Positions 13,493 through 26,051 of a stretch of DNA of 46,813 nt are shown piece by piece (within the stretch, counting starts at the first letter, position 1; each line of letters opens with the position of its first letter). The stretch comes from Thermoplasmata archaeon (GTDB lineage Archaea > Thermoplasmatota > Thermoplasmata > Lutacidiplasmatales > UBA184), in the NCBI GenBank assembly GCA_027365105.1, contig DAHXNZ010000012.1, forward strand, positions 1-46,813, in the 5' to 3' direction. The position numbers were made by a program, and so were the translations under genes. Under the pieces are notes generated by a model. It was given only the letters and a program-made list of their open reading frames with translations, searched no databases and was not told the origin of the DNA.

Positions 13493-14557
13493 TCAGTATG
13501 GGCGGTCGGCCGCGCCTCGGGCGAGCCACTCGAGGAAGGTCCGGTACATCCCTCCCGGGAATCGGCCGAGGGAGTCGATCGCCCGGTCGCTCCAGCGTCG
13601 GGCTTCCGCAGCGACCTCGGCCGCCGCGTCGGTCGAGTCGATGAGTTCCTTGAGCCTCAAGAGGTGCCGGGTCCGCTTGCGGCGCATCTGGAAGAGCCGC
13701 TCGAACTCGGCCTGGTGCCGGCCGCCCAGATGGCGGTAGGCCTCGAGGGTCAGCAAGGTCGGGTTGCCTTCCCGGAGGTCCGAGTAGAGGGGCTTTCCGA
13801 GGAGGTCGGGGTCCCCGTGGATGTCCAACAGATCGTCCCGGATCTGGAAGGCGATGCCGAGCGACCGACCGTAGGCGATCGCGTCCTCGATGATCGCGGG
13901 GGTCGCCCCGGCGATCTCCGCGACGCTCCCGAGCGCCGAAGCGATCAGGGCGGCCGTCTTGCGCTCGATGACCCGGAAGTAGTGTTCCCGCCCCCGGGAA
14001 AGGTCGAACTGGGCCGTGTCCTGGAGGACCTCGCCCTCGACCAAGTCGGCGCAGGCCTCGGCGCTCCGCAGGATGACGCTGCGGGAGTACTCGGCGGCCA
14101 GCTGGAACGCCCGGACGAAGAGGTAGTCTCCCGTCACGATGGAGAGCGGCATCCCGAAGGCCCGCGGCATCGACGGCTGCCCCCGGCGGGTCCCCGCATG
14201 GTCGATGACATCGTCGTGGACGAGCGTTGCCGTGTGGATGAGCTGCGAGGCCGCGCAGAGCGAGCGGATCGGGGCGGTCGACTCCTGGCCGAGGGCCCGG
14301 AACGTCGCGGCCATGAGGAGGGGACGGATCCGCTTGCCGCCGGTGGAGCAGGCGTAGCGGGCCGCCTCGGTCAGCTGGGAGTACTTCGACCCCAGCACCT
14401 CCTGGAGCCGCCAGTCGATATCGGTCAGGTCCTGGACCAGGACCGGCAGGAGGCTCGAAAGCTCCCGGGCCCCCTCCCGGTCGATCGTCCGGCCGACGAT
14501 CGCCTCCAGCGGGTGTTCGGTGGGCGCCGAGGGCGGGGCGGGGGCCGGCCCGGTCAC
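13493..14557 (-). CDS. Trans-polyprenyl diphosphate synthase, long-chain type by motif
   Basis: Adds isopentenyl units to allylic diphosphates. The 354-residue protein has both aspartate-rich motifs: DDVID (Asp115, 116, 119) and DDLLD (Asp241, 242, 245). The residues before the first motif, IHTATLVHDD, place Ala110 at position -5, as in bacterial octaprenyl/heptaprenyl synthases (IspB type), whereas archaeal C20 synthases usually carry a bulky aromatic there that stops elongation. This favours a quinone side-chain synthase over a lipid geranylgeranyl synthase, but product length is inferred. Start is GTG at 14557, overlapping the reductase stop (GTGA). It is the last gene of the nuo transcription unit. 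Confidence 0.88.
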   Translation of the reverse strand: MTGPAPAPPSAPTEHPLEAIVGRTIDREGARELSSLLPVLVQDLTDIDWRLQEVLGSKYSQLTEAARYACSTGGKRIRPLLMAATFRALGQESTAPIRSLCAASQLIHTATLVHDDVIDHAGTRRGQPSMPRAFGMPLSIVTGDYLFVRAFQLAAEYSRSVILRSAEACADLVEGEVLQDTAQFDLSRGREHYFRVIERKTAALIASALGSVAEIAGATPAIIEDAIAYGRSLGIAFQIRDDLLDIHGDPDLLGKPLYSDLREGNPTLLTLEAYRHLGGRHQAEFERLFQMRRKRTRHLLRLKELIDSTDAAAEVAAEARRWSDRAIDSLGRFPGGMYRTFLEWLARGAADRPY

Positions 14558-15654
14558 GAGCTCCTCCCCCGACGGATCGGCCAGCGCATCCGCATCATGG
14601 CATCGAGACCCCGCGCGCCGATATAGCGCATCCCGAGGGCCAGGAGGGGGTCGTGGGCCGCCCACCGGTCTCCGAACCGCTTGACGTCGTAGCCCCGGGA
14701 GAGGACCGGAGCCAGGACCGGTTGCCACGCCCGGTCGTAGTCGGCGAGCGGGGCCCCCTGCCGAAGGTGGGCGACCGCGGCCTGCCCGGCCAGCCAGCCG
14801 CTCAACATCGCCGTCGGGATCCCGCCCCCGTTGGTCGCCATCACCAGGTTCGCCGCATCCCCGGCGAGGAGTGTCGATCCCGAGACGAGGCTCTCCGGTG
14901 GGGGTCCGATCGGCACCCACCAGTGGGTCCGATCGTGCGCCGGGGGCAGCTCCTGACCGGCGACGAACCGGTCGAGCAGCCGGTCCAGCCCGACCCCCGG
15001 GGGAAGGTGGGTGACCCCAATCCCGACGTTGGCGTCGTTCAGCCGGGGAAACGCCCAGGCGTACCCCCCGGGGGCGACCCGGCCGAAATAGAGGGCGATC
15101 TCGTCGTCCCAGGCACGGTCGACGGTCGCCGTCACCATCCGGTACATCTCCCGCTCGACCCTCAGGCCGGCCGACCGGGCCACCACCGAGACCGGACCGT
15201 CGGCGCCGATGACCACGCGTGCCTCCACCGGCTCGCCCCGGGCGAAGCGGGCGGTCCCCCCCGTCACCGAGATCACTCCGGCGGGGTAGCGGAGTTCGGC
15301 GCCCTGGCCCTCCGCCTCCAGCGCGAGCGCCTTGTCGAAGGCCCGTCGGGAGAGGGTGCAGCCGGCGAGCGGAAACCGGTATCGGCGGCCGAACGGGGAG
15401 ACGCAGACCATCGATCGGGTGGTCCGAAGGGCGGTCGCCTCCGGGATCGTGTAGGCCGCCCGGATCAGATCGGGGGCCGGAAAGAGGGTGGCGAGCTCCT
15501 CCGGGGTCGGGACGAACTCCCCGCACTGCACCGGATGGCCCAGCTCCTCGCGACGGTCGACCAGCAGCGTGCGGAGCCCGCCCTGCGCCGCGGCGCTGGC
15601 GGCCCGGGCGCCGGCCGGACCGGCGCCGACCACCAGGACGTCCACCCGCTCCAT
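14554..15654 (-). CDS. Geranylgeranyl reductase family flavoprotein
   Basis: An FAD-dependent reductase of the GGR family, which saturates isoprenoid double bonds in archaeal lipids or menaquinone tails. The 366-residue protein begins with the Rossmann FAD loop VVGAGPAGARAA (Gly10, 12, 15), has PVQCGEF near residue 43 matching the family's Cys-containing motif, the GADGP segment mid-protein and the second FAD motif LLAGDAANL followed by NGGGIPTAM. It starts 5 nt after the nuoN stop and its own stop overlaps the polyprenyl synthase start. Its place behind complex I and beside a long-chain synthase suggests quinone tail reduction, though a membrane-lipid role is possible. Confidence 0.9.
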   Translation of the reverse strand: MERVDVLVVGAGPAGARAASAAAQGGLRTLLVDRREELGHPVQCGEFVPTPEELATLFPAPDLIRAAYTIPEATALRTTRSMVCVSPFGRRYRFPLAGCTLSRRAFDKALALEAEGQGAELRYPAGVISVTGGTARFARGEPVEARVVIGADGPVSVVARSAGLRVEREMYRMVTATVDRAWDDEIALYFGRVAPGGYAWAFPRLNDANVGIGVTHLPPGVGLDRLLDRFVAGQELPPAHDRTHWWVPIGPPPESLVSGSTLLAGDAANLVMATNGGGIPTAMLSGWLAGQAAVAHLRQGAPLADYDRAWQPVLAPVLSRGYDVKRFGDRWAAHDPLLALGMRYIGARGLDAMMRMRWPIRRGRSS

Positions 15655-15659
15655 CGGCC

Positions 15660-17243
15660 TCACGGGCCAACGAGCACGAAGTGCTGGGCCGCGCTCTGGA
15701 CGAGGCCCAGCATCGGCTGGGGATCGATACCGAAGAAGACGACCAGCACGGCCACGAGCCCGATCGCCGCCGCCCGTCCGTACCCCATCCCCTGGAAGGC
15801 CAGGCCGGGAGCCTCCGGCCGGGGGGCCGGGGCCGTCGGGTCCGGAGTGTCCAGGAACATTACCTTGATCACCCGGGCGTAGTAGAAGACCGAGGCCGCG
15901 CTGTTCAACACCCCGGCGATGGCGAGCCAGACGAAGTACCCCTCGGCCTGGATCGCGGACCCGAAGAGCACGAACTTGGAGACAAATCCGACCGTGAGCG
16001 GGATGCCCGCGAGCCCGAGCAGCATGAACGAAAAGGCGACCCCGAGGTACGGCCTCCGCACGCCGAGTCCCCGCCAGTCGTCGATCCGCGCCCCGATGCC
16101 GAGCGCCGCGACGGCGGCGACGACCAGGAACGCCCCGGTCGTCAGGATCACGTGCGCGAAGATCTGGAGCGTCGCGCCCGCGATCGCCGGAGCCGTGGCG
16201 ACCGTAATCCCGATCAGCATGTACCCGGCTTGGCTGATGGAGGAGTACGCGAGCATCCGCTTGATCTCCTTCTGCTGGAGGGCCAGCAGGTTCCCGACCG
16301 TCATCGTCACGACGGCCAGAACGGCCAGCAGCACCTGGAGAAGCGGCCCGATCGGGACCCCCGGCCCCCCCAGGGGATTGAACGAGGCTCCCCAGCGCGC
16401 GAGCAGGATCGGGCCGATGAAGACCAGGAAGAACGCAAACAGGCCGATCTTCTTCGTCCCGCCCGCCAGGAACGCCGAGACGTCGTGCGGGGCGCCGTCG
16501 TACACATCGACCGCCCAGGCGTGGAACGGGACCAACGTCACCTTGAAGGCGAGGCCGGCCACCAGGAGCCCGTAGCCGAGCAGGACCAGGGTCGGGGCCC
16601 CGACCGCCGATCCTTCGATGGCGTAGAGGTTGGTGGTGCCGAATGCCCCGAAGAGGAGCGCGACTCCGAAGAGGGAGAGGACCGTGGAGAGCGCCCCGAT
16701 GATGTAGAACTTCATCGCCGCCTCGACCGACCGGGAGTCGCGGCGGGTGTAGGCCACCAGCAGGTAGGTCGAGATGCTGACCACCTCGATCGCCAGGACC
16801 AGGAACAGGAGGTCGGAGGCGACGCCCACCAGCATCATGCCGAGCGTGGCGAGCAGCACCAGGCCGAAGAAGACCGCACCCCCCCGCTCCTTCGAGGGCC
16901 GGCTCATCGAGCCGAGGCTCACGAGCAGCGCCGAGATGAGGAAGAACAGCTGGAAGACCAACCCCAGGGAAGTGAACGCGTAGAGGGGGGCCGAACTGGG
17001 GGTGACCACCGCGTCGATCTGGCCGGCCGGAATCAGTGCGAGTCCCGCCCACGGCGCGACCCCGAGATCCGCCAGGACCAGGAGCAGGCCGACCGCGGTG
17101 ACCGCCACGGCGATCCCGCCGTTGAGCTCCACCCGGCGGACCTCCAGCACATCGAGCAGGAAGACCACCAGCGCGCCCGCCAGGAGAAGGAGCTCCGGTA
17201 GAAAGGGGCCGACGAACGCGGTGAATGCGCCGAGGTCGGACAC
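15660..17243 (-). CDS. nuoN: Complex I subunit N (antiporter-like membrane subunit)
   Basis: One of three Mrp-antiporter-like proton channels of complex I. The 527-residue protein is almost wholly hydrophobic with about 14 predicted helices; it contains the family core KMLAYSSISQAGYMLIG, whose first Lys belongs to the proton path, and SKFVLFGSAI in the later helices. The last helix ends near the C-terminus (VLVVFFGIDPQPMLGLVQ). It starts 1 nt after the nuoM stop region and is followed after 5 nt by the reductase gene, so all are in one transcript. Confidence 0.96.
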   Translation of the reverse strand: MSDLGAFTAFVGPFLPELLLLAGALVVFLLDVLEVRRVELNGGIAVAVTAVGLLLVLADLGVAPWAGLALIPAGQIDAVVTPSSAPLYAFTSLGLVFQLFFLISALLVSLGSMSRPSKERGGAVFFGLVLLATLGMMLVGVASDLLFLVLAIEVVSISTYLLVAYTRRDSRSVEAAMKFYIIGALSTVLSLFGVALLFGAFGTTNLYAIEGSAVGAPTLVLLGYGLLVAGLAFKVTLVPFHAWAVDVYDGAPHDVSAFLAGGTKKIGLFAFFLVFIGPILLARWGASFNPLGGPGVPIGPLLQVLLAVLAVVTMTVGNLLALQQKEIKRMLAYSSISQAGYMLIGITVATAPAIAGATLQIFAHVILTTGAFLVVAAVAALGIGARIDDWRGLGVRRPYLGVAFSFMLLGLAGIPLTVGFVSKFVLFGSAIQAEGYFVWLAIAGVLNSAASVFYYARVIKVMFLDTPDPTAPAPRPEAPGLAFQGMGYGRAAAIGLVAVLVVFFGIDPQPMLGLVQSAAQHFVLVGP

Positions 17244-17244
17244 G

Positions 17245-18711
17245 CTAGAACCCCCGGATCGGCGACTGCAGGATCAGGTTCACGAGCAGGGCGGGGAGCA
17301 CGCCGAACAGCACGATTGCGGCGACCAGGATCCCCATCCCGATCCGCTCGGGGATCGGCAGGTCGTGGACCTTGAGCGGGATCCCCTTTTGGGGACCGAA
17401 GACCAGCCGCTGCATCATCCAGAGGTAGAACGCCGCCGTGACGACCAGGATCCCCAGCGGAATGAGCACCCAGTAGCCGATGGCGACCCACGTTGCCAGG
17501 AACGCGGAGAACTCGGCCGGAAAGCCGATGAGCGCCGGGAGCCCGAGCGAGGCGAGCGAACCGATCATGATCATCGTCGCGAGGACCGGGGTGACCGCCG
17601 CGATCCCGCCAATCCCCGCGATGTCCCGGGTCCCGTAGGTGTGGTGGACGCTCCCCGAGACCATGAAGAGGAGACCGCTCACCACGCCGTGGGCGAACAT
17701 GAGGAAGACCGCCGCCATCAGGCCGAGCGAAGAGTCGACGGCGATCGCCAGCAGGACGATCCCCATGTGGTTGATCGACGAGTAGGCGACCATCCGTTTC
17801 AGGTCGCGCTGGCTCAACGCCACGACGGATCCCCACGCGATCGAGGCGAAGGCGATGAAGTAGACCAGCGGATCCATGTGAAGGAAGCCCGACGGCAGGA
17901 CCAGCACCGCCCAGCGGATCAGCCCGTAGCCGCCGAGCTTGAGGAGCAGGCCGGCGAGGAGCACCGACCCCCCCGTCGGGGCCTCGACATGCGCGTCCGG
18001 TAGCCAGGTATGGAAGGGGACGATCGGGAACTTGACCCCGAACCCGAAGAGCAGCGCGACGAAGACCAGCGACTGCTGCACGACCGACAGATCGGGCGCC
18101 GCGGCGTAGATCGCCCCGTAGTCGAAGGAGCCGGCCCCGGAGTAGAAGGCCATCACGAGCAGGCCGACCAGGACGACGACCGAGCCGACGTGGGTGTAGA
18201 TGAAGAACTTGATGGCGGCATAGCGCCGGCGGGGTCCGCCCCAGTAGCCGATGATGAAGAACATCGGCACGAGGACCGCCTCCCAGAAGAGGAAGAAGAG
18301 CAGGATGTCCATCGAGGCAAAGACCCCGACCGAACCGAGCCCGGTCAGCAGGATGAGGCCGAACCAGGGACCGGGGCGCTTCGACTCGGTCCAGCTGTAG
18401 ACGACCGTGGCGAGCTGGAGCACTCCGGTCAGCAGGATGAGGGCCAGCGAGAGGCCGTCGACCGCCACCGAGTAATTGATGTGGAGCCAGGAGAGCGAGA
18501 TCCACGCGTAGGTCTCCGCGTCGCCGGACGGCACTCCGCCGATCAGGGGGCCGGGCGCCGCGAAGAACAGCGCCATCATGACGCCGATCTCGAGCAGGAA
18601 GACCAGGGTCGTGGCCAGCGCCGCCCACCGGGCGTAGCGGCCGGCGACAAACGTGACCACGGTCCCGACCGCGAGGGACGCGAGGGTGACGGAGATGATC
18701 GGGAACGTCAT
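17245..18711 (-). CDS. nuoM: Complex I subunit M (antiporter-like membrane subunit)
   Basis: Antiporter-like proton-channel subunit. The 488-residue protein has about 14 transmembrane segments, the conserved glutamate helix LLFFLFWEAVLVPMFFIIG near residue 130-150, the HTWLPDAHVEAPTGGSVLL signature and DLKRMVAYSSINHMG, all characteristic of NuoM/FpoM. It lies with 1-nt gaps between nuoL and nuoN. No missing proton-path residue was noticed. Confidence 0.96.
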   Translation of the reverse strand: MTFPIISVTLASLAVGTVVTFVAGRYARWAALATTLVFLLEIGVMMALFFAAPGPLIGGVPSGDAETYAWISLSWLHINYSVAVDGLSLALILLTGVLQLATVVYSWTESKRPGPWFGLILLTGLGSVGVFASMDILLFFLFWEAVLVPMFFIIGYWGGPRRRYAAIKFFIYTHVGSVVVLVGLLVMAFYSGAGSFDYGAIYAAAPDLSVVQQSLVFVALLFGFGVKFPIVPFHTWLPDAHVEAPTGGSVLLAGLLLKLGGYGLIRWAVLVLPSGFLHMDPLVYFIAFASIAWGSVVALSQRDLKRMVAYSSINHMGIVLLAIAVDSSLGLMAAVFLMFAHGVVSGLLFMVSGSVHHTYGTRDIAGIGGIAAVTPVLATMIMIGSLASLGLPALIGFPAEFSAFLATWVAIGYWVLIPLGILVVTAAFYLWMMQRLVFGPQKGIPLKVHDLPIPERIGMGILVAAIVLFGVLPALLVNLILQSPIRGF

Positions 18712-18712
18712 C

Positions 18713-20719
18713 TTATCCGCCTCCGACCCAATTCACCAGGTACGGCCCAACCAGCAGGAGCAGGACGAAGACGGCCAGGAGCCCCGCGACGACGTACGCC
18801 GCATAGTCGGAGACGACACCCGACTGGATCCGGCGCATCCGGTCGGAGATCCGCGAAAAGAGCTGCTCGATCCCCCGGACCGTGCCGTCGATGACGAACT
18901 GATCGAAGAAGTCGGCCGCGCGCGCCACGCTGTAGACCGCCTTCGCCCCCACCGCGTCGTAGGCGACCTTGAAGTAGTAGCGGTTGAGGAGCACTTTGCG
19001 GCCCGAGCTCCAGAGGGAACCTTCGGGAAGTTCCACCATGCGGCCGTTGCCCCACAGGGCCCACGCGGTCAGGATCCCCCCACCCCCCAGGGCGACTCCC
19101 AGCACGGAGAGCAGGAGGTCGGTCGTGCCGTACGTCGGCGGGATCCCGAGGGCCGCGACCCCGCCCGGCAGGAGGAAGAGGTTCGCGAACCCGGGAAGGA
19201 AGATGAGGAGCCCGGCCCCGACGGCGAATCCGGAGAGGACGATGAGCGGGACCTGCATGACCCACGGGCCCTCGTGGGGCGTCGGAAGGGTCGGGTCGCG
19301 GATCCGGTCCCCCGAGAAGGTGAGGAACCAGACCCGGAAGATGTAGTAGCCCGTCAGGAAGACCGCGGCCATCGCCATGATGAGGAACGGCCAGTAGTCC
19401 GGATGGCTCCCGGCCACCGAATAGACCGAGGAGAGGATGTCGTCCTTGCTCCAGAAGCCCGCGAAGGGTGGGATCCCCGCCAGTGCAAGGCCGCCGATCG
19501 CAAAGGCCGCCCCGGTGACCCGGAGGTGCCGTTTGAGCCCCCCCATCTTGAACAGGTCCTGGGTCCCGATCGCGTGGATCACCGAGCCGGCGGCCAGGAA
19601 GAGCAGCGCCTTGAAGAAGGCGTGCGTGAACAGGTGGTAGAGCCCGACCATCGCGAAGCCGGCGCCGACGGCGAGGACCATGTAGCCCAGCTGGCTGATG
19701 GTCGAGTAGGCGATCACCCGTTTGATGTCGGTATGGACCACCGCCATCGTGGCGGCGAAGAGCGTCGTGAACCCTCCGATCGCCACGATCGCCAGCTGGT
19801 CGGTCGGTGTGAAGCCCAGGAAAATGCTGGTCATCGCCAGGAGATAGACTCCCGCCGCGACCATCGTAGCCGCATGGATGAGCGCCGAGACCGTGGTCGG
19901 GCCTTCCATCGCATCGGGGAGCCAGACATGCAGGGGGAACTGGGCGCTCTTTCCGGCCGCTCCCGCGAGGATGCAGAGCCCGGCGATGGTGAGCAGGGGG
20001 GTGTTCGCGCCCAGGCTGCCCGCGAGGAACGGGAGGTTCCCGTAGGCGAAGAGGAACCCCGAGGAGGCCCAGTGGAGCCCGGCCGGACCGGCCGAGGCGT
20101 AGACGTAGAAGAAGATGAAGATCCCGAGGAGGAACAGCACGTCCCCGATCCGGGTGATGAGGAAGGCCTCCTTCGCCGCGCTGGCGGCGCTCGGTTTCTC
20201 GTAGAAAAAGCCGATGAGGAAGTACGAACAGACCCCGACCAGCTCCCAGAAGAGGAAGAACTCGAGCAGGTTGTTCGAGAGGACCAGGCCGATCATGGCG
20301 GTCAGGAAGAGCGACAGCTCCGCGTAGTACCGGGCGAGCCCGTGCTCGTGGTGCATGTACCCGATCGAGTAGAGGAGGACCAGGAAGCCGACGACCGTGA
20401 CGACGATCAGCATGAGGGAGGAGATCGGATCGACGAGGGTCCCGATCACCAGCGAAAATCCATAGGGGAAGGTCGGGTTCGCGGGCAGGGAGAACCAGGT
20501 GTAGGAGAGGCTCGTGTAGGTGTCCGGCGACGCCATCTCTCCCAGCGCGATCAGGAGCGCGAGGACCATCGAGACGGCCGCCGCCCCGACCGCGATCCAC
20601 CCGCCGTACTCCAGCCGACGCAGCCGGGTCCCGAAGAGACCGATCACGATGAAGGCGAGCGCGGGGAGCAGCGGAACCAGGAAGGCCCATCCGAAGAGCG
20701 ATGCGAGTCCACCGGTCAC
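18713..20719 (-). CDS. nuoL: Complex I subunit L (antiporter-like subunit with long C-terminal helix)
   Basis: Distal proton-pumping subunit of complex I. The 668-residue protein contains FFLFWELVGVCSYFLIGF (channel glutamate), the core FPLHVWLPDAMEGPTTVSAL signature and IKRVIAYSTISQLGYM, and ends with extra helices corresponding to the lateral helix and its anchor. Start is GTG at 20719, preceded by AGGAGGAAC, a clear ribosome binding site, 13 nt after the nuoK stop. Length is typical for NuoL. Confidence 0.96.
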   Translation of the reverse strand: MTGGLASLFGWAFLVPLLPALAFIVIGLFGTRLRRLEYGGWIAVGAAAVSMVLALLIALGEMASPDTYTSLSYTWFSLPANPTFPYGFSLVIGTLVDPISSLMLIVVTVVGFLVLLYSIGYMHHEHGLARYYAELSLFLTAMIGLVLSNNLLEFFLFWELVGVCSYFLIGFFYEKPSAASAAKEAFLITRIGDVLFLLGIFIFFYVYASAGPAGLHWASSGFLFAYGNLPFLAGSLGANTPLLTIAGLCILAGAAGKSAQFPLHVWLPDAMEGPTTVSALIHAATMVAAGVYLLAMTSIFLGFTPTDQLAIVAIGGFTTLFAATMAVVHTDIKRVIAYSTISQLGYMVLAVGAGFAMVGLYHLFTHAFFKALLFLAAGSVIHAIGTQDLFKMGGLKRHLRVTGAAFAIGGLALAGIPPFAGFWSKDDILSSVYSVAGSHPDYWPFLIMAMAAVFLTGYYIFRVWFLTFSGDRIRDPTLPTPHEGPWVMQVPLIVLSGFAVGAGLLIFLPGFANLFLLPGGVAALGIPPTYGTTDLLLSVLGVALGGGGILTAWALWGNGRMVELPEGSLWSSGRKVLLNRYYFKVAYDAVGAKAVYSVARAADFFDQFVIDGTVRGIEQLFSRISDRMRRIQSGVVSDYAAYVVAGLLAVFVLLLLVGPYLVNWVGGG

Positions 20720-20731
20720 GAGTTGTTCCTC

Positions 20732-21064
20732 CTAGAGTTTCAGGGAATCGGCTTCGGCGACGTTCGTCGTGCCCCGGATGCGGTGGAGCGCCAGGACGAT
20801 GGCGAGTCCGACCGCCACCTCGGTGGCGGCGAGCCCGATCACGACCACGGCGATCGCCTGGCCGGTGAGCGGATGGCAGGTCGCGGCGGTCACGCACTGG
20901 GGAAACGCCGCGAAGTAGACGAACGAGAGGATCGCCGCGTTCATCCCGATCTCGAGCGCGATGAGCAGCAGGATGAAGTTGCGGCGGGTCAGGATCCCGA
21001 AGATCGAGATCGCCACGAGGCCGGAGGCGAGGGCGAGGAAGTCCCCCACGGGCAGGGTCGTCAT
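20732..21064 (-). CDS. nuoK: Complex I subunit K
   Basis: Small MrpC-like membrane subunit with three helices. The 110-residue protein has the conserved membrane glutamates in LLIALEIGMNAAIL (helix 2) and GLAATEVAVGLAI (helix 3), both needed for proton movement in characterised homologs. ATG at 21064 overlaps the nuoJ stop (ATGA), which defines the start; the frame is open far upstream only as an out-of-frame shadow of nuoI/nuoJ. Confidence 0.96.
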   Translation of the reverse strand: MTTLPVGDFLALASGLVAISIFGILTRRNFILLLIALEIGMNAAILSFVYFAAFPQCVTAATCHPLTGQAIAVVVIGLAATEVAVGLAIVLALHRIRGTTNVAEADSLKL

Positions 21065-21549
21065 TCGCGCCCCTCCCGCACCAGGTAGATGGCCCCCGCG
21101 AGCGCCGCGAGCATGACGAGCCCGAGGAGCAGGAGGTACGGCGCCTCGGTGTTGAAGAGCAGCGTCGAGAGGGAGGCGACCGAGTAGCTGGCCGCCGGAA
21201 CCGCCGAGCCGGGCAGCTGGCCGAGGGCGCCGATGAGGAAGATGAAGGTCACGACGGCGAGCGCGATCGGGAGCGCGCCGACCCCGGTCGCGGCGTCCCG
21301 GGAGAAGATCCGCTTCCGCGTGACCATGATCCCGAAGAGGAGCAGGATGGTCACGGCGCCCGCGTAGACCCCGAGCTGGAGGACCCCCAGGAAGGGCGCC
21401 TCGAGGAGGAAGTAGATCGCCGCCAGGTCGACAAAGAAGATGCCGATCCAGAGGATCGTATGGACCAGCTCTCGGACGAGGAGGGCCAGAAGCCCGGTCG
21501 CGATCGCGACGATCGCCAGGGCGAAGAACGCCAGTTCGGTCAGACTCAC
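21061..21549 (-). CDS. nuoJ: Complex I subunit J
   Basis: Membrane subunit with five predicted helices; it holds the pi-bulge helix that couples quinone chemistry to pumping. The 162-residue protein includes AIYFLLEAPFLGVLQLGVYAGAV-like conserved segment (residues about 50-72) with the glutamate and Tyr of the family. Unlike methanogen Fpo, where J is split in two, it is one gene. Start is GTG at 21549, overlapping the nuoI stop (GTGA). Confidence 0.94.
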   Translation of the reverse strand: MSLTELAFFALAIVAIATGLLALLVRELVHTILWIGIFFVDLAAIYFLLEAPFLGVLQLGVYAGAVTILLLFGIMVTRKRIFSRDAATGVGALPIALAVVTFIFLIGALGQLPGSAVPAASYSVASLSTLLFNTEAPYLLLLGLVMLAALAGAIYLVREGRE

Positions 21550-22328
21550 GCCCGAGTCCCCCAGAACAGGCACTCTTTCGGACACACGCTGATGCAGGTG
21601 CCGCACCGGACGCAGTCGGAGTCGTTGACGACCGGCTCCTTCCAGATCCGTCGAGGCGCCTTCGCTCCCGGAGGCGTCTCGGGCTTGGGGATATCCACCA
21701 TGGTGATGCACTGGGTCGGGCAGTCCCGGGCGCAGGCATTGCATCCGATGCACAGGGGGGCATCGAGGAGGATCGCGTCCTCGTTGGCGGGCCGCTCGAG
21801 CCGGATCGGGTTCATCGGCAGCTTCCGCTCGAAGACCTCAAACAGCTTCTCGGGCGAGTAGACCATCTCCGAACGCTTCGTGACCGAGAGCTCGTAGCGG
21901 GTGGTCATCGACAGGCACCCCTCCGGGCAGGCGTCGGAGCAGAAGCCGCAGTAGCTGCACTTCCCGTAGTCGATCTGCGGACACTTCTTCGGGTGCTTCG
22001 GGTTGCCCCCGGGCACCGTTACCATCTCGATGCAGAGGTCCGGACAGGAGAACGAACAGAGGTTGCAACTGATGCAGGTCGCGATGTTGAGCGCGTGGAC
22101 CCCCCGGTAGTTGTCCCAGACCGCGCCGACACCGATCGGCTTGCCCGCCGCGACCGCCACCTCCTCCCGGAACTTCGGGTCCTCGAGCCGCTCGAACGGG
22201 TAGATGATCGTGGAGGGACGGACGAGGCTCTTCAGGAACTGGCGGGCCGCCGTCGCCATCGGGCGGACGACCCAGAGCACCGGGTTGTCTTGGCCCGACG
22301 TCTGCGGAGTCAACGCTTCTTCGGTCAT
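21546..22328 (-). CDS. nuoI: Complex I subunit I with four [4Fe-4S] motifs
   Basis: NuoI normally carries two [4Fe-4S] clusters (N6a, N6b) that pass electrons to NuoB. This 260-residue version has the canonical pair at Cys85/88/91/95 and Cys124/127/130/134, then a second ferredoxin-like pair at Cys193/196/199/203 and Cys239/242/245/249, each in the C-x2-C-x2-C-x3-C-P pattern. It is roughly 90-100 residues longer than usual. With no nuoE, nuoF or nuoG in the operon, the extra pair could be the entry point for electrons from ferredoxin; that is inference. It lies between nuoH (13 nt) and nuoJ (overlap), so the extension is part of an intact operon, not a chance fusion. Confidence 0.95.
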   Translation of the reverse strand: MTEEALTPQTSGQDNPVLWVVRPMATAARQFLKSLVRPSTIIYPFERLEDPKFREEVAVAAGKPIGVGAVWDNYRGVHALNIATCISCNLCSFSCPDLCIEMVTVPGGNPKHPKKCPQIDYGKCSYCGFCSDACPEGCLSMTTRYELSVTKRSEMVYSPEKLFEVFERKLPMNPIRLERPANEDAILLDAPLCIGCNACARDCPTQCITMVDIPKPETPPGAKAPRRIWKEPVVNDSDCVRCGTCISVCPKECLFWGTRA

Positions 22329-22341
22329 CGCCCTTCGTCCC

Positions 22342-23469
22342 CTAGATCCCCAGGTTCGGGAGGCACCCGAAGATCGGCAAGCACTTCACCATGACCACCC
22401 CGGCGGCGAGGACCACCGAGAGGAGGGCGAGCGGGATCATCCGGTTCCAGCCCACCCTAAGCAACTGATCGGTCCGTACCCGCGGGAGGGACGCGCGGAT
22501 CCAGACGAACACGGCGAAGACGACATAGACCTTGACCATGAACCAGACAATCCCCGCGAGCGGGAACGACGTCGCCGCCGAGGGAACCCAGCTCGGCATC
22601 GTCCACCCTCCGAGGAAGAGCAGGACCACCAGGAAGCTGCCGACGAGGGCCCTCACATAGTCGGAGAGCATGAAGAAGGCGAACAGCATCCCGCCGTACT
22701 CCGTGTTCCAGCCCTCGACGAGTTCCGCCTCGGCCTCGGGCAGGTCGAAGGGAATCCGTTCCATCTCCGCGAGCATCGCCGCCACGAAGACGAGCAGGGC
22801 CAGGAAGAGCGGGCCCCAGTACCAGTAGTTCTGCTGCTGGGCGACGATCGTGTTGAGGTCGAAGCTCCCCGAGACGACGACGACCGCCACGACCGAGAGC
22901 AGGAGCGGGACCTCGTAGGCGATCATCTGGGCCGCCGAGCGCATCCCGCCCATCAGGGAGTACTTGTTGTTGCTCGACCAGGCGCTGATGAAAATGAAGA
23001 GCGGGGCGAACGAAAAGACGACCAGGGCGAGGAGGAGACTCAACGGCAGGACGCCGCTGTTCCAGCCGGTCGAGACCGGCAGGATCCCAAAGAGGATCAG
23101 TGAGGTGACCATGTAGGCGGTCGGCCCGAGATAGAATCCCAGCCCGTCGGCCTCGTCGGGGCGGAAGGTGTTCTTGCGCATCAGCTTGAGCCCGTCGGCG
23201 AAGTTCTGGAGCAGGCCCGCAAATCCGACGTGCATCGCGCCCCGCCGGTCCATGAACCGGCCGAGCAGCTTGCGTTCGAACCAGATGAGCACGATCGTGT
23301 TGAGCATGCTCGCGATGAGCAGGATCGCGGCGAAGACGATCACCCCGAGCGCCGTGATGAGGCCGGCATTGGTGATGCCCTGCCGGAGCGGAGATGGCAG
23401 GACCGATCCGATCGCGGTGAGAACGATCGCGACCAGGCTGTGGGCCACCGAGTAGAGACTGGCCGACAT
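22342..23469 (-). CDS. nuoH: Complex I subunit H (quinone-site membrane subunit)
   Basis: Membrane subunit that forms the quinone chamber with NuoB and NuoD. The 375-residue protein has eight or nine helices and the conserved segments IWFERKLLGRFMDRRG (near residue 63), the loop with LMRKNTFRPDEAD, EMERIPFDLPEAEAELVEG and EYGGMLFAFF, in family order. It is in the central part of the operon, between nuoD (9 nt) and nuoI (13 nt). A C-terminal extra helix ends in two cysteines (VKCLPIFGCLPN). Confidence 0.96.
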   Translation of the reverse strand: MSASLYSVAHSLVAIVLTAIGSVLPSPLRQGITNAGLITALGVIVFAAILLIASMLNTIVLIWFERKLLGRFMDRRGAMHVGFAGLLQNFADGLKLMRKNTFRPDEADGLGFYLGPTAYMVTSLILFGILPVSTGWNSGVLPLSLLLALVVFSFAPLFIFISAWSSNNKYSLMGGMRSAAQMIAYEVPLLLSVVAVVVVSGSFDLNTIVAQQQNYWYWGPLFLALLVFVAAMLAEMERIPFDLPEAEAELVEGWNTEYGGMLFAFFMLSDYVRALVGSFLVVLLFLGGWTMPSWVPSAATSFPLAGIVWFMVKVYVVFAVFVWIRASLPRVRTDQLLRVGWNRMIPLALLSVVLAAGVVMVKCLPIFGCLPNLGI

Positions 23470-23478
23470 CGCCCCTCC

Positions 23479-24624
23479 CTACCGGTCGGACTCCCCGACG
23501 CAGACGTCGACGCTCCCCATGATCGGGGGGATGTCGGCCACATGGTAGCCCACGAGGTACTTCCGCGCGGCACTCAGGTTGACGTAGACCGGGGACCGGA
23601 ACTTGACCCGATAGGGGTGTTCCCCTCCCTGGTTGACGACGTACACCGCCGCTTCGCCGTGGGGCTCCTCGATCGCGGCGAATCCCACGCCTTTCGGGTA
23701 CTCCCGCTTGAGGAGGTAGCCTTCCCGCCCGATGGGGGCATACGGCGCGCCCAACCAGCGGGGGAGATTCTCGGCCATCACCGGGCCGGGGTGGTGGTCG
23801 AGCCAGTCGAGCACCTGGCGGAGGATGCGGACCGACTGGCGCATCTCCTCCATCCGGACGAGGTAGCGGCCCGTGACGTCGGCGGTCGTCGCCCGGGCGA
23901 CGTCGAAGTCGACCCGGTCGTACGCGGAGTACGGCCGGTCCTTGCGGAGATCGCGTGCGACCCCGGCCGACCGGAGCATCGGGCCGGTGACCCCGTAGTC
24001 GATGCAGTCCCGGGCCGAAAGGACCCCGAGGCCATCGCACCGACGTCGGAAGATGTCGGAGCCCATGCAGAGCTGGTCGTATTCCTGGAACCGCTCGATC
24101 AGCCAGTCGAGCACCTTGCGGGCACGGTCGGTGAATCCGTGCGGGAGATCGTTCCGGACCCCGCCGACCCGCATGTATTCATACGTCATCCGGGCCCCGG
24201 TGTAGCTCTGGAAGAGATCGAGGAGGAGATCGCGGTCCCGCATCCCGTAGAGGAACGGGCTCATCAGTCCCAGGTCCTGGACGAACGCCGCATACCACAT
24301 GATGTGGGAGGCGATCCGCTGGAACTCCTCCGACATCGTCCGGATGTACTCCGCCCGCTCGGGCGGCTGGAGGTGAAGGGCCTGCTCGGCGCCGAGGATG
24401 TAGAGGTGCTCCCAGGCCATCCCGGCCACATAGCAGGTCCGGTCCATCAGGGTCACGACCTCATTGTAGTGCCGGTCCTCACTGATCTTCTCGATCCCCC
24501 GGTGGAGGTAGCCCATCTCGGGATCGACGTCGAGGATCAGCTCCCCGTCGATCTGGACCCGGAGGTTCCAGAGCCCATGGGTCATGGGGTGCTGCGGCCC
24601 CATGTTGATCCACATCTCAGACAT
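23479..24624 (-). CDS. nuoD: Complex I subunit D (49-kDa homolog)
   Basis: Peripheral-arm subunit related to NiFe-hydrogenase large subunits; lines the quinone site. The 381-residue protein opens with the conserved INMGPQHPMTHG loop, followed by DPEMGYLHRGIEK and, near residue 150, GARMTYEYMRVGGVRNDLP. The nickel-binding cysteines of hydrogenases are absent, as expected for a quinone-reducing complex. It is a separate gene from nuoC, whose stop it overlaps by 8 nt. Confidence 0.96.
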   Translation of the reverse strand: MSEMWINMGPQHPMTHGLWNLRVQIDGELILDVDPEMGYLHRGIEKISEDRHYNEVVTLMDRTCYVAGMAWEHLYILGAEQALHLQPPERAEYIRTMSEEFQRIASHIMWYAAFVQDLGLMSPFLYGMRDRDLLLDLFQSYTGARMTYEYMRVGGVRNDLPHGFTDRARKVLDWLIERFQEYDQLCMGSDIFRRRCDGLGVLSARDCIDYGVTGPMLRSAGVARDLRKDRPYSAYDRVDFDVARATTADVTGRYLVRMEEMRQSVRILRQVLDWLDHHPGPVMAENLPRWLGAPYAPIGREGYLLKREYPKGVGFAAIEEPHGEAAVYVVNQGGEHPYRVKFRSPVYVNLSAARKYLVGYHVADIPPIMGSVDVCVGESDR

Positions 24625-25093
24625 GGCGCACCTTGACCTCGAGATCCTCCGGCTCGTGGAGCTTGAAGGAACGGAGCAGAGGGTGGAACTCGTAGCCGTC
24701 CGGCATCAACAGGTGCCGGAGATCCGGGTGGCCCTCGAACTGGATGTCGACCATCTCCCACGCCTCCCGCTCGTGCCAGTTGGCGCTCGGCCAGACCCGC
24801 GTTGCGGTGGCCACCGTCGGGTGGTCGGCCGGAAGGTCGGTGGAGAGGAAGAGGTACGTCTTCCCGGCATCGGACCAGAGCGTGTAGATGACCTCGCGAT
24901 GGTCGACCCAGTCGATCCCGCCGATCATCGTCAGGTGGTGGAAGCCGGCATCGTGGACGGCCCGGAAGACCCGCTCCGCGTCGGCCGAGCGGAACCGGAT
25001 CCGACCGGAGGTGCCTTCCATCGGCTCCAGGGCGACCAGGGCCTCCCCGAGGAGCTCCGGCCACGGCACAGGTGGCGCGGGCAGGGCGGTCAT
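24617..25093 (-). CDS. nuoC: Complex I subunit C (30-kDa homolog)
   Basis: Peripheral-arm structural subunit packing against NuoD. The 158-residue protein contains the family signature ANWHEREAWEMVDIQFEGHP and ends with the DGYEFHPLLRSF segment. ATG at 25093 is preceded by AAGGAGTGA, a plausible ribosome binding site, and lies 8 nt after the nuoB stop. Shorter than fused CD proteins; consistent with a separate NuoC. Confidence 0.94.
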   Translation of the reverse strand: MTALPAPPVPWPELLGEALVALEPMEGTSGRIRFRSADAERVFRAVHDAGFHHLTMIGGIDWVDHREVIYTLWSDAGKTYLFLSTDLPADHPTVATATRVWPSANWHEREAWEMVDIQFEGHPDLRHLLMPDGYEFHPLLRSFKLHEPEDLEVKVRHV

Positions 25094-25101
25094 CGGGGGG
25101 T

Positions 25102-25689
25102 TCACTCCTTCCTGAGCCGGATCAGATCTTCCAGCCGCAGGATCCCTTCGAGCATCGCCTCGGGTCGCGGCGGGCAGCCGGCGATGTAGACGTCGACCGG
25201 GACCAGCTTGTCGACGCCCGGAACGACCGAATAGGCGGTGCGGAACGGCCCGCCACCGGTCGCGCAGTTGCCCATGGCGATCACCCACTTCGGCTCCGGC
25301 ATCTGCTCGTAGAGCGTGATGAGCTTGTGGGCCACCTTCCAGGTCACGGTCCCGTTGACGATCATGAGGTCGCACTGCCGCGGGGAGGACCGGGGAACGA
25401 CGCCGAACCGTTCCGCGTCCCACCTCGCCCCGAACGCCGCGGCAAACTCGATGGCGCAGCAGGCCAGGCCCCAGTGGAGCGGGAAGAGCGAGTTGCGGCC
25501 GGCCCAGTTGAAGACCGGGCGAATGAGCTTCGATTGGCCCTGCTCGGCGATCAGCGAGGTCAGGGCCTCCTTCGCCGCGGGAATGAACTCTCGGGACCGG
25601 AGCGCTTCGATTTCGACGAACGGGACGGCGGCTTCGCCGGCCCCAGGGAGCTCCCCACGGACCCCCTTCGTTTCCGGTGCGGCGCTCAT
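25102..25689 (-). CDS. nuoB: Complex I subunit B (N2 cluster)
   Basis: Carries the terminal [4Fe-4S] cluster N2 that reduces quinone. The 195-residue protein shows the cluster ligands Cys77-Cys78 (GLACCAIE), Cys142 (GNCATGG) and Cys172 (GCPPRPE). An N-terminal extension of about 45 residues precedes the conserved fold. ATG at 25689 overlaps the nuoA stop (ATGA). Confidence 0.97.
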
Positions 25690-26051
25690 ACGACCCAGCG
25701 CTTCTCCCCGCTCAACGCGTAGTAGATCCCGGCCAGCGCGAGGGCCGTGAAGGCGAAGGCGATGAACGCCGGATACCAGGCCGAATTCGGCCCCCGGAAA
25801 TTGAGCCCCCAGAGGGCGAGGAGAAAGCCCAGGACATCGACGGCGACGAAGACAATCGCAAAGGTGTAGTGCTGGGTGGGAAAATCGATCTGGGCCTCAC
25901 CTTCCGCTTCCTCCCCGCACTCGTAGGTCGTCCGTTGGAGGTAACTTTTGCGCCGGGGCGCGCCGAGAGTACGGTTCGCGACGATCGAGCCGCCTCCGAA
26001 GGCGGCGGCAATCGCGGCGAAGACCAAAAACGTCTCGATTCCTGCGCCCAT
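25686..26051 (-). CDS. nuoA: Complex I subunit A
   Basis: Small membrane subunit with three helices beside the quinone site. The 121-residue protein has the conserved [11 protein letters not shown] loop (residues about 43-53, with the family cysteine) and the charged helix [19 protein letters not shown]. It is the first gene of the nuo operon; its ATG at 26051 sits about 40-50 nt after a strong TATA element, implying a leader of roughly 15-20 nt. Confidence 0.96.

Follow-up and report, generated by a model that had tools for sequence, protein, structure and literature searches.

The window, a stretch of 46,813 nucleotides from a Thermoplasmata archaeon, encodes an 11-subunit complex I whose NuoI carries an extra C-terminal pair of [4Fe-4S] cluster motifs. 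The complex is predicted to reduce quinone, and the 2[4Fe-4S] module fused to NuoI would serve as a built-in input wire for ferredoxin; a probability of roughly 0.6 is given to this reading, with donor, docking site, electron path and quinone predicted from sequence. Novelty lies in the putative input arm, which is covalently attached, modular and equipped with clusters; the rest is an ordinary 11-subunit complex I.

Complex I without NuoEFG has already been published for the Thermoplasmatales (PMC3750248, PMC5155288), where the entry of electrons was called unknown and yet unknown mechanisms of electron flow were suggested (Golyshina 2016, PMC5155288). The re-oxidation of ferredoxin in aerobic archaea has been stated to be unresolved (Iwasaki 2010, PMC2946596; Pfeiffer 2021, PMC8305020). 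For this question, a conserved cluster-bearing extension on the electron-entry subunit is a concrete and testable candidate, and it is a plausible answer to ferredoxin disposal in these oxygen-breathing archaea. A full-text literature search retrieved no description of a four-cluster NuoI, although older or closed papers may mention one.

The nuo operon and the extra module of NuoI

The operon comprises the full set nuoABCDHIJKLMN, and the products of nuoA, B, C, D, H, J, K, L, M and N each matched their Pfam family (Table 1). All four ligand cysteines of cluster N2 are present in the NuoB sequence and NuoD is devoid of the two [NiFe] cysteine pairs, indicating that the complex reduces quinone and is no hydrogenase. 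The operon is flanked downstream by genes for a geranylgeranyl-reductase-like protein and a polyprenyl synthase, and upstream by those for an enoyl-CoA hydratase, an SPFH protein and an NfeD protein.

Table 1. Features of the nuo operon and of its conserved neighbours in the window.
Feature	Position	Strand	Remarks
polyprenyl diphosphate synthase	13493..14557	-	PF00348; conserved neighbour
geranylgeranyl-reductase-family flavoprotein	14554..15654	-	TIGR02032 over cut-off; conserved neighbour
nuoN	15660..17243	-	PF00361
nuoM	17245..18711	-	PF00361
nuoL	18713..20719	-	PF00361 and PF00662
nuoK	20732..21064	-	PF00420
nuoJ	21061..21549	-	PF00499; GTG start overlaps nuoI stop (GTGA)
nuoI	21546..22328	-	260 aa; four [4Fe-4S] motifs
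extra C-terminal dicluster ferredoxin module, residues 185-260	21549..21776	-	Pfam Fer4_7 193-252
motif 4, Cys239-242-245-249	21582..21614	-	translation and alignments
motif 3, Cys193-196-199-203	21720..21752	-	translation and alignments
motif 2, Cys124-127-130-134	21927..21959	-	ordinary NuoI pair, N6a/N6b
motif 1, Cys85-88-91-95	22044..22076	-	ordinary NuoI pair, N6a/N6b; TIGR01971 residues 71-162
nuoH	22342..23469	-	PF00146
nuoD	23479..24624	-	PF00346; NF004739 over cut-off; without two [NiFe] cysteine pairs
nuoC	24617..25093	-	PF00329
nuoB	25102..25689	-	PF01058; N2 ligand cysteines CC, GNC, GCP in sequence
nuoA	25686..26051	-	PF00507

Translation of the NuoI reading frame yielded four complete CxxCxxCxxxC motifs, with first cysteines at 85, 124, 193 and 239; the second pair, which the earlier note had placed at Cys193-203 and Cys239-249, was recovered at the same residues from the minus strand. 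NuoI matched NCBIfam TIGR01971 with 119.4 bits (cut-off 113.05) over residues 71-162, that is, over the N-terminal motif pair, while its score against the FpoI model (81.5) was below the cut-off of 180. Four stretches were matched by Pfam Fer4. The second pair belongs to an additional ferredoxin domain of the dicluster type (Fer4_7, residues 193-252), and one match of the FwdF model runs across all four motifs. The nearest solved relatives of the extra module are the polyferredoxins MvhB and FwdF. These proteins, with their tandem dicluster modules, are the best sequence match of the extension, but they are parts of the heterodisulfide reductase-hydrogenase and formylmethanofuran dehydrogenase complexes, whereas the module of the window belongs to a complex I.

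The two genes that follow nuoN (window 13493-15654) occupy the same place in three other families (f3, f6 and f8), which suggests a link to the synthesis or saturation of the quinone tail; the geranylgeranyl-reductase-family protein probably has a role in the saturation of quinone or lipid side chains. The genome of the window also contains a second complex-I-related set (L002, G000:C179:5788-8904), made up of a NuoC/NuoD-like protein and a second protein in which a NuoB domain is fused to a two-cluster ferredoxin domain; the set resembles an energy-converting hydrogenase-related complex.

Occurrence and evolution of the extension

The survey covered 293 genomes of the phylum, which were searched with a profile built from diverse four-cluster NuoIs. 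Families are coded, f1 being that of the window genome; f3 appears Thermoplasmataceae-like, f5 Methanomassiliicoccales-like and f25 and f33 Marine-Group-II-like, as judged partly from gene content and literature. The nearest public relatives are Thermoplasmata metagenome-assembled genomes, including Candidatus Lutacidiplasma silvani (L084, 80% identity). Members of the Lutacidiplasmatales are common in acidic soils and mostly aerobic (PMC9287336).

Matches reached profile position 243 or beyond in 60 of the 293 genomes, from nine families, and the next best match ended at position 152; the extension is thus not a quirk of one genome. These four-cluster genomes include all 13 of f1, 26 of f3, eight of f6, six of f14, three of f8 and one each of f9, f10, f11 and f30. 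Within f1, every intact copy of NuoI has the four motifs, with spacing that varies by at most one residue, and a contig end truncates one copy. In the operons fetched (one to three per family), the four-cluster gene lies between nuoH and nuoJ wherever the contig extends that far, and nuoE, nuoF and nuoG were not seen in them. A two-cluster NuoI is encoded in operons of f4, f5, f7, f12, f13, f15, f19, f23, f25, f29, f31, f33, f37, f38 and f40. One genome of the same genus as that of the window, G278, carries the four-cluster NuoI and NuoD in two copies each (G278:C2 and G278:C24). Matches on marine IMG/VR contigs (L210-L289) were uninformative as four-cluster relatives, since the eight read out of 80 code for NdhI-like proteins that have two clusters and resemble cyanobacterial NdhI.

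None of the 16 cysteines varies among 49 family members or across 13 NuoIs of eight families, between which identity is about 33%. Both halves of NuoI are under purifying selection (dN about 0.01-0.22, dS about 0.4-1.2), and dN/dS of the extension is about as low as that of the core. Chance, an artefactual gene fusion or faulty assembly might be suspected behind the extra motifs, given the fragmented window assembly (201 contigs); the same architecture is nevertheless found in dozens of independent genomes, some of them apparently complete in a single contig, and together with the selection on the extension these results refute such an origin.

A longer form was found in one related order (G248 and relatives; matches in 20 of 21 genomes), whose NuoI is about 300 aa long, has six positions for a motif and is encoded beside nuoD, nuoH and nuoJ. 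Under the strict CxxCxxCxxxC pattern, six motifs are present in seven of the 20 copies and five in 12, one cysteine of a middle motif having been lost; the remaining copy is truncated at the end of its contig. The middle motif that is short of one cysteine in most copies (L133, L190-L209) is perhaps a [3Fe-4S] site or a lost site. Every complete copy retains both the NuoI pair and the terminal pair, with the added module placed between the core of NuoI and the terminal module. The extension therefore looks modular, growing between the core and a conserved terminal module. The terminal loop of this form is strongly lysine-rich, which, together with the intact end pairs, would fit docking of the donor on the end module. 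As a natural experiment, NuoIs with two, four and five to six motifs would show how far the electron chain of complex I can be lengthened.

It is very unlikely that the extra clusters lie off the main path, as an electron buffer or as a structural cap protecting the exposed N6a face from oxygen. Such a cap would not need the invariance of all eight extra cysteines, nor does it agree with the preservation of both ends in the five- and six-motif forms; in its favour, four-cluster forms occur in lineages thought to be aerobic and two-cluster forms in a presumed methanogen family, lifestyles taken partly from literature.

The tree of concatenated NuoB, D, H, L and M separated a two-cluster clade (f5, f7, f12, f23, f29, f31, f37 and f38) from a second clade (SH-aLRT 96) that unites every four- and six-cluster form with the two-cluster families f15, f25 and f33. 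Three changes are enough to explain the distribution of motif number, and a single clade of all forms with at least four clusters was not rejected (p-AU 0.168). The simplest reading is one gain of the extension followed by one or two losses, with the details of the tree remaining soft owing to many missing columns in f15, f30 and the outgroup.

Missing input module and putative electron donors

The earlier note had described the operon as devoid of an NADH- or F420-oxidising subunit, and indeed no NuoE, NuoF or NuoG is encoded within the nuo operon. In the whole 1.83-Mb genome (97.5% complete), neither the NuoF domain PF01512 nor the FrhB/FpoF domain PF04432 was detected, while control genomes were positive; PF04432 was also absent from all 13 family genomes sampled. 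The complex of the window lacks both the NuoEFG by which the 14-subunit bacterial complex I is recognized and the FrhB-like FpoF that characterizes F420H2 dehydrogenase (Fpo/Fqo). Both domains are absent from 52 of the 60 genomes with a four-cluster NuoI match. The sole PF01512 match in f1 (G101) adjoins a molybdopterin formate dehydrogenase, to which it belongs, and was rejected as a NuoF feeding the complex. In a four-cluster genome of the survey, G176, nuoEFG genes (L174, G176:C62) are located with a nuoD fragment on a 4.6-kb contig that is probably a stray bacterial contig.

The lack of NuoEFG is, however, insufficient to explain the extension, since two-cluster complexes of the FpoI type are also without input modules. 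A two-cluster NuoI complex in a genome without PF01512 or PF04432 is present in the same phylum, for example in G099 (f5), and Fpo-like complexes lacking FpoF have been proposed to accept electrons directly from ferredoxin (PMC4153887). An additional wire is thus not strictly needed, and the extension, instead of being an indispensable replacement of NuoEFG, would represent a lineage-specific improvement or a change of partner.

According to the proposed mechanism, 2-oxoacid:ferredoxin oxidoreductases would reduce ferredoxin, which would dock on the terminal module of NuoI; electrons would then pass through clusters 4 and 3 to N6a, N6b, N2 and menaquinone, and this transfer would drive proton pumping. 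In aerobic archaea, ferredoxin is reduced by oxidative decarboxylations (PMC2946596, PMC8305020). The genome of the window encodes two 2-oxoacid:ferredoxin oxidoreductases and at least two acidic dicluster ferredoxins, with a core pI of 4.5-5.0 versus 7.7 for the NuoI extension. In the alignment of 13 NuoIs, the net charge of the extension is just slightly positive in most families, and charge was thus discarded as proof of docking. A further point against the proposed mechanism is that no electron-donor gene is linked to the nuo operon. AlphaFold models of NuoI reached a mean pLDDT of 39 with 49 close relatives and of 41.5 after the addition of distant NdhI rows, values too low for cluster distances and most likely due to a small alignment depth. 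The built-in wire suggested in the earlier note is partly supported, namely by the conserved module, by its resemblance to the wire polyferredoxins FwdF and MvhB and by the ferredoxin-reducing enzymes and acidic ferredoxins of the genome; the missing input module, taken by itself, did not suffice to account for the extension.

A wire whose donor is a soluble enzyme that docks transiently (a flavoprotein or a dehydrogenase, linked for instance to NAD(P)H, ETF or formate) instead of free ferredoxin is considered rather unlikely. Fused dicluster modules often touch partner enzymes, as in MvhB and FwdF, donors may be encoded outside the operon, and one family member has a formate dehydrogenase with a NuoF-like subunit. 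On the other hand, the operon neighbours include no redox flavoprotein besides the geranylgeranyl-reductase-like protein, and the absence of PF01512 and PF04432 from the genome also argues against such a donor.

Use of the extension as a low-potential output wire, with the pH gradient of an acidophile pushing electrons from menaquinol up to ferredoxin, is improbable. Cluster motifs of the clostridial type, which suggest a low potential, agree with it, and in Acidiplasma grown on pyrite the transcripts of subunits A, B, C, D and I increased more than two-fold (PMC12524180); however, the genome encodes its own ferredoxin-reducing 2-oxoacid oxidoreductases, and direction is not readable from sequence.

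With ferredoxin as donor, it is tentatively proposed, at somewhat less than even odds, that a covalent polyferredoxin arm of two, four or five to six motifs on the NuoI of Thermoplasmatota replaces NuoEFG, yielding a ferredoxin:menaquinone proton pump that might be reversible, so that the pH gradient of an acidophile could generate reduced ferredoxin.

Comparison with known complexes

The 11-subunit complex I without an NADH module has the same 11 genes in the same order, and ferredoxin input has been proposed for it (PMC5155288, PMC8305020, PMC11238625). Its NuoI binds two clusters, whereas that of the window has motifs for four and that of the sister order five or six motifs. The methanogen Fpo and Fpo-like complexes are archaeal relatives of complex I in which FpoF is sometimes missing; the NuoIs of the FpoI type that were read have two clusters, unlike the four of the window, and lie elsewhere in the tree.

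Photosynthetic NDH-1 is, like the complex of the window, without NuoEFG, and in it ferredoxin docks on NdhI, the homologue of NuoI, and feeds N6a (PMC7021789). NdhI has two clusters and docking is aided by the small subunits NdhS, NdhV and NdhO, whereas the module of the window is covalent and bears its own clusters.

In the two-cluster NuoI of the Marine-Group-II-like families, the two motifs are separated by an insertion of about 85 aa (L142:4722-5753, L156:4230-5228, L157:5056-6048). This insertion has no Pfam match but reads SH3/Tudor-like (..VRWMDGSGIETLDSSDLKP..); the NDH-1 subunit NdhS, whose place is on NdhI, is likewise SH3-like.
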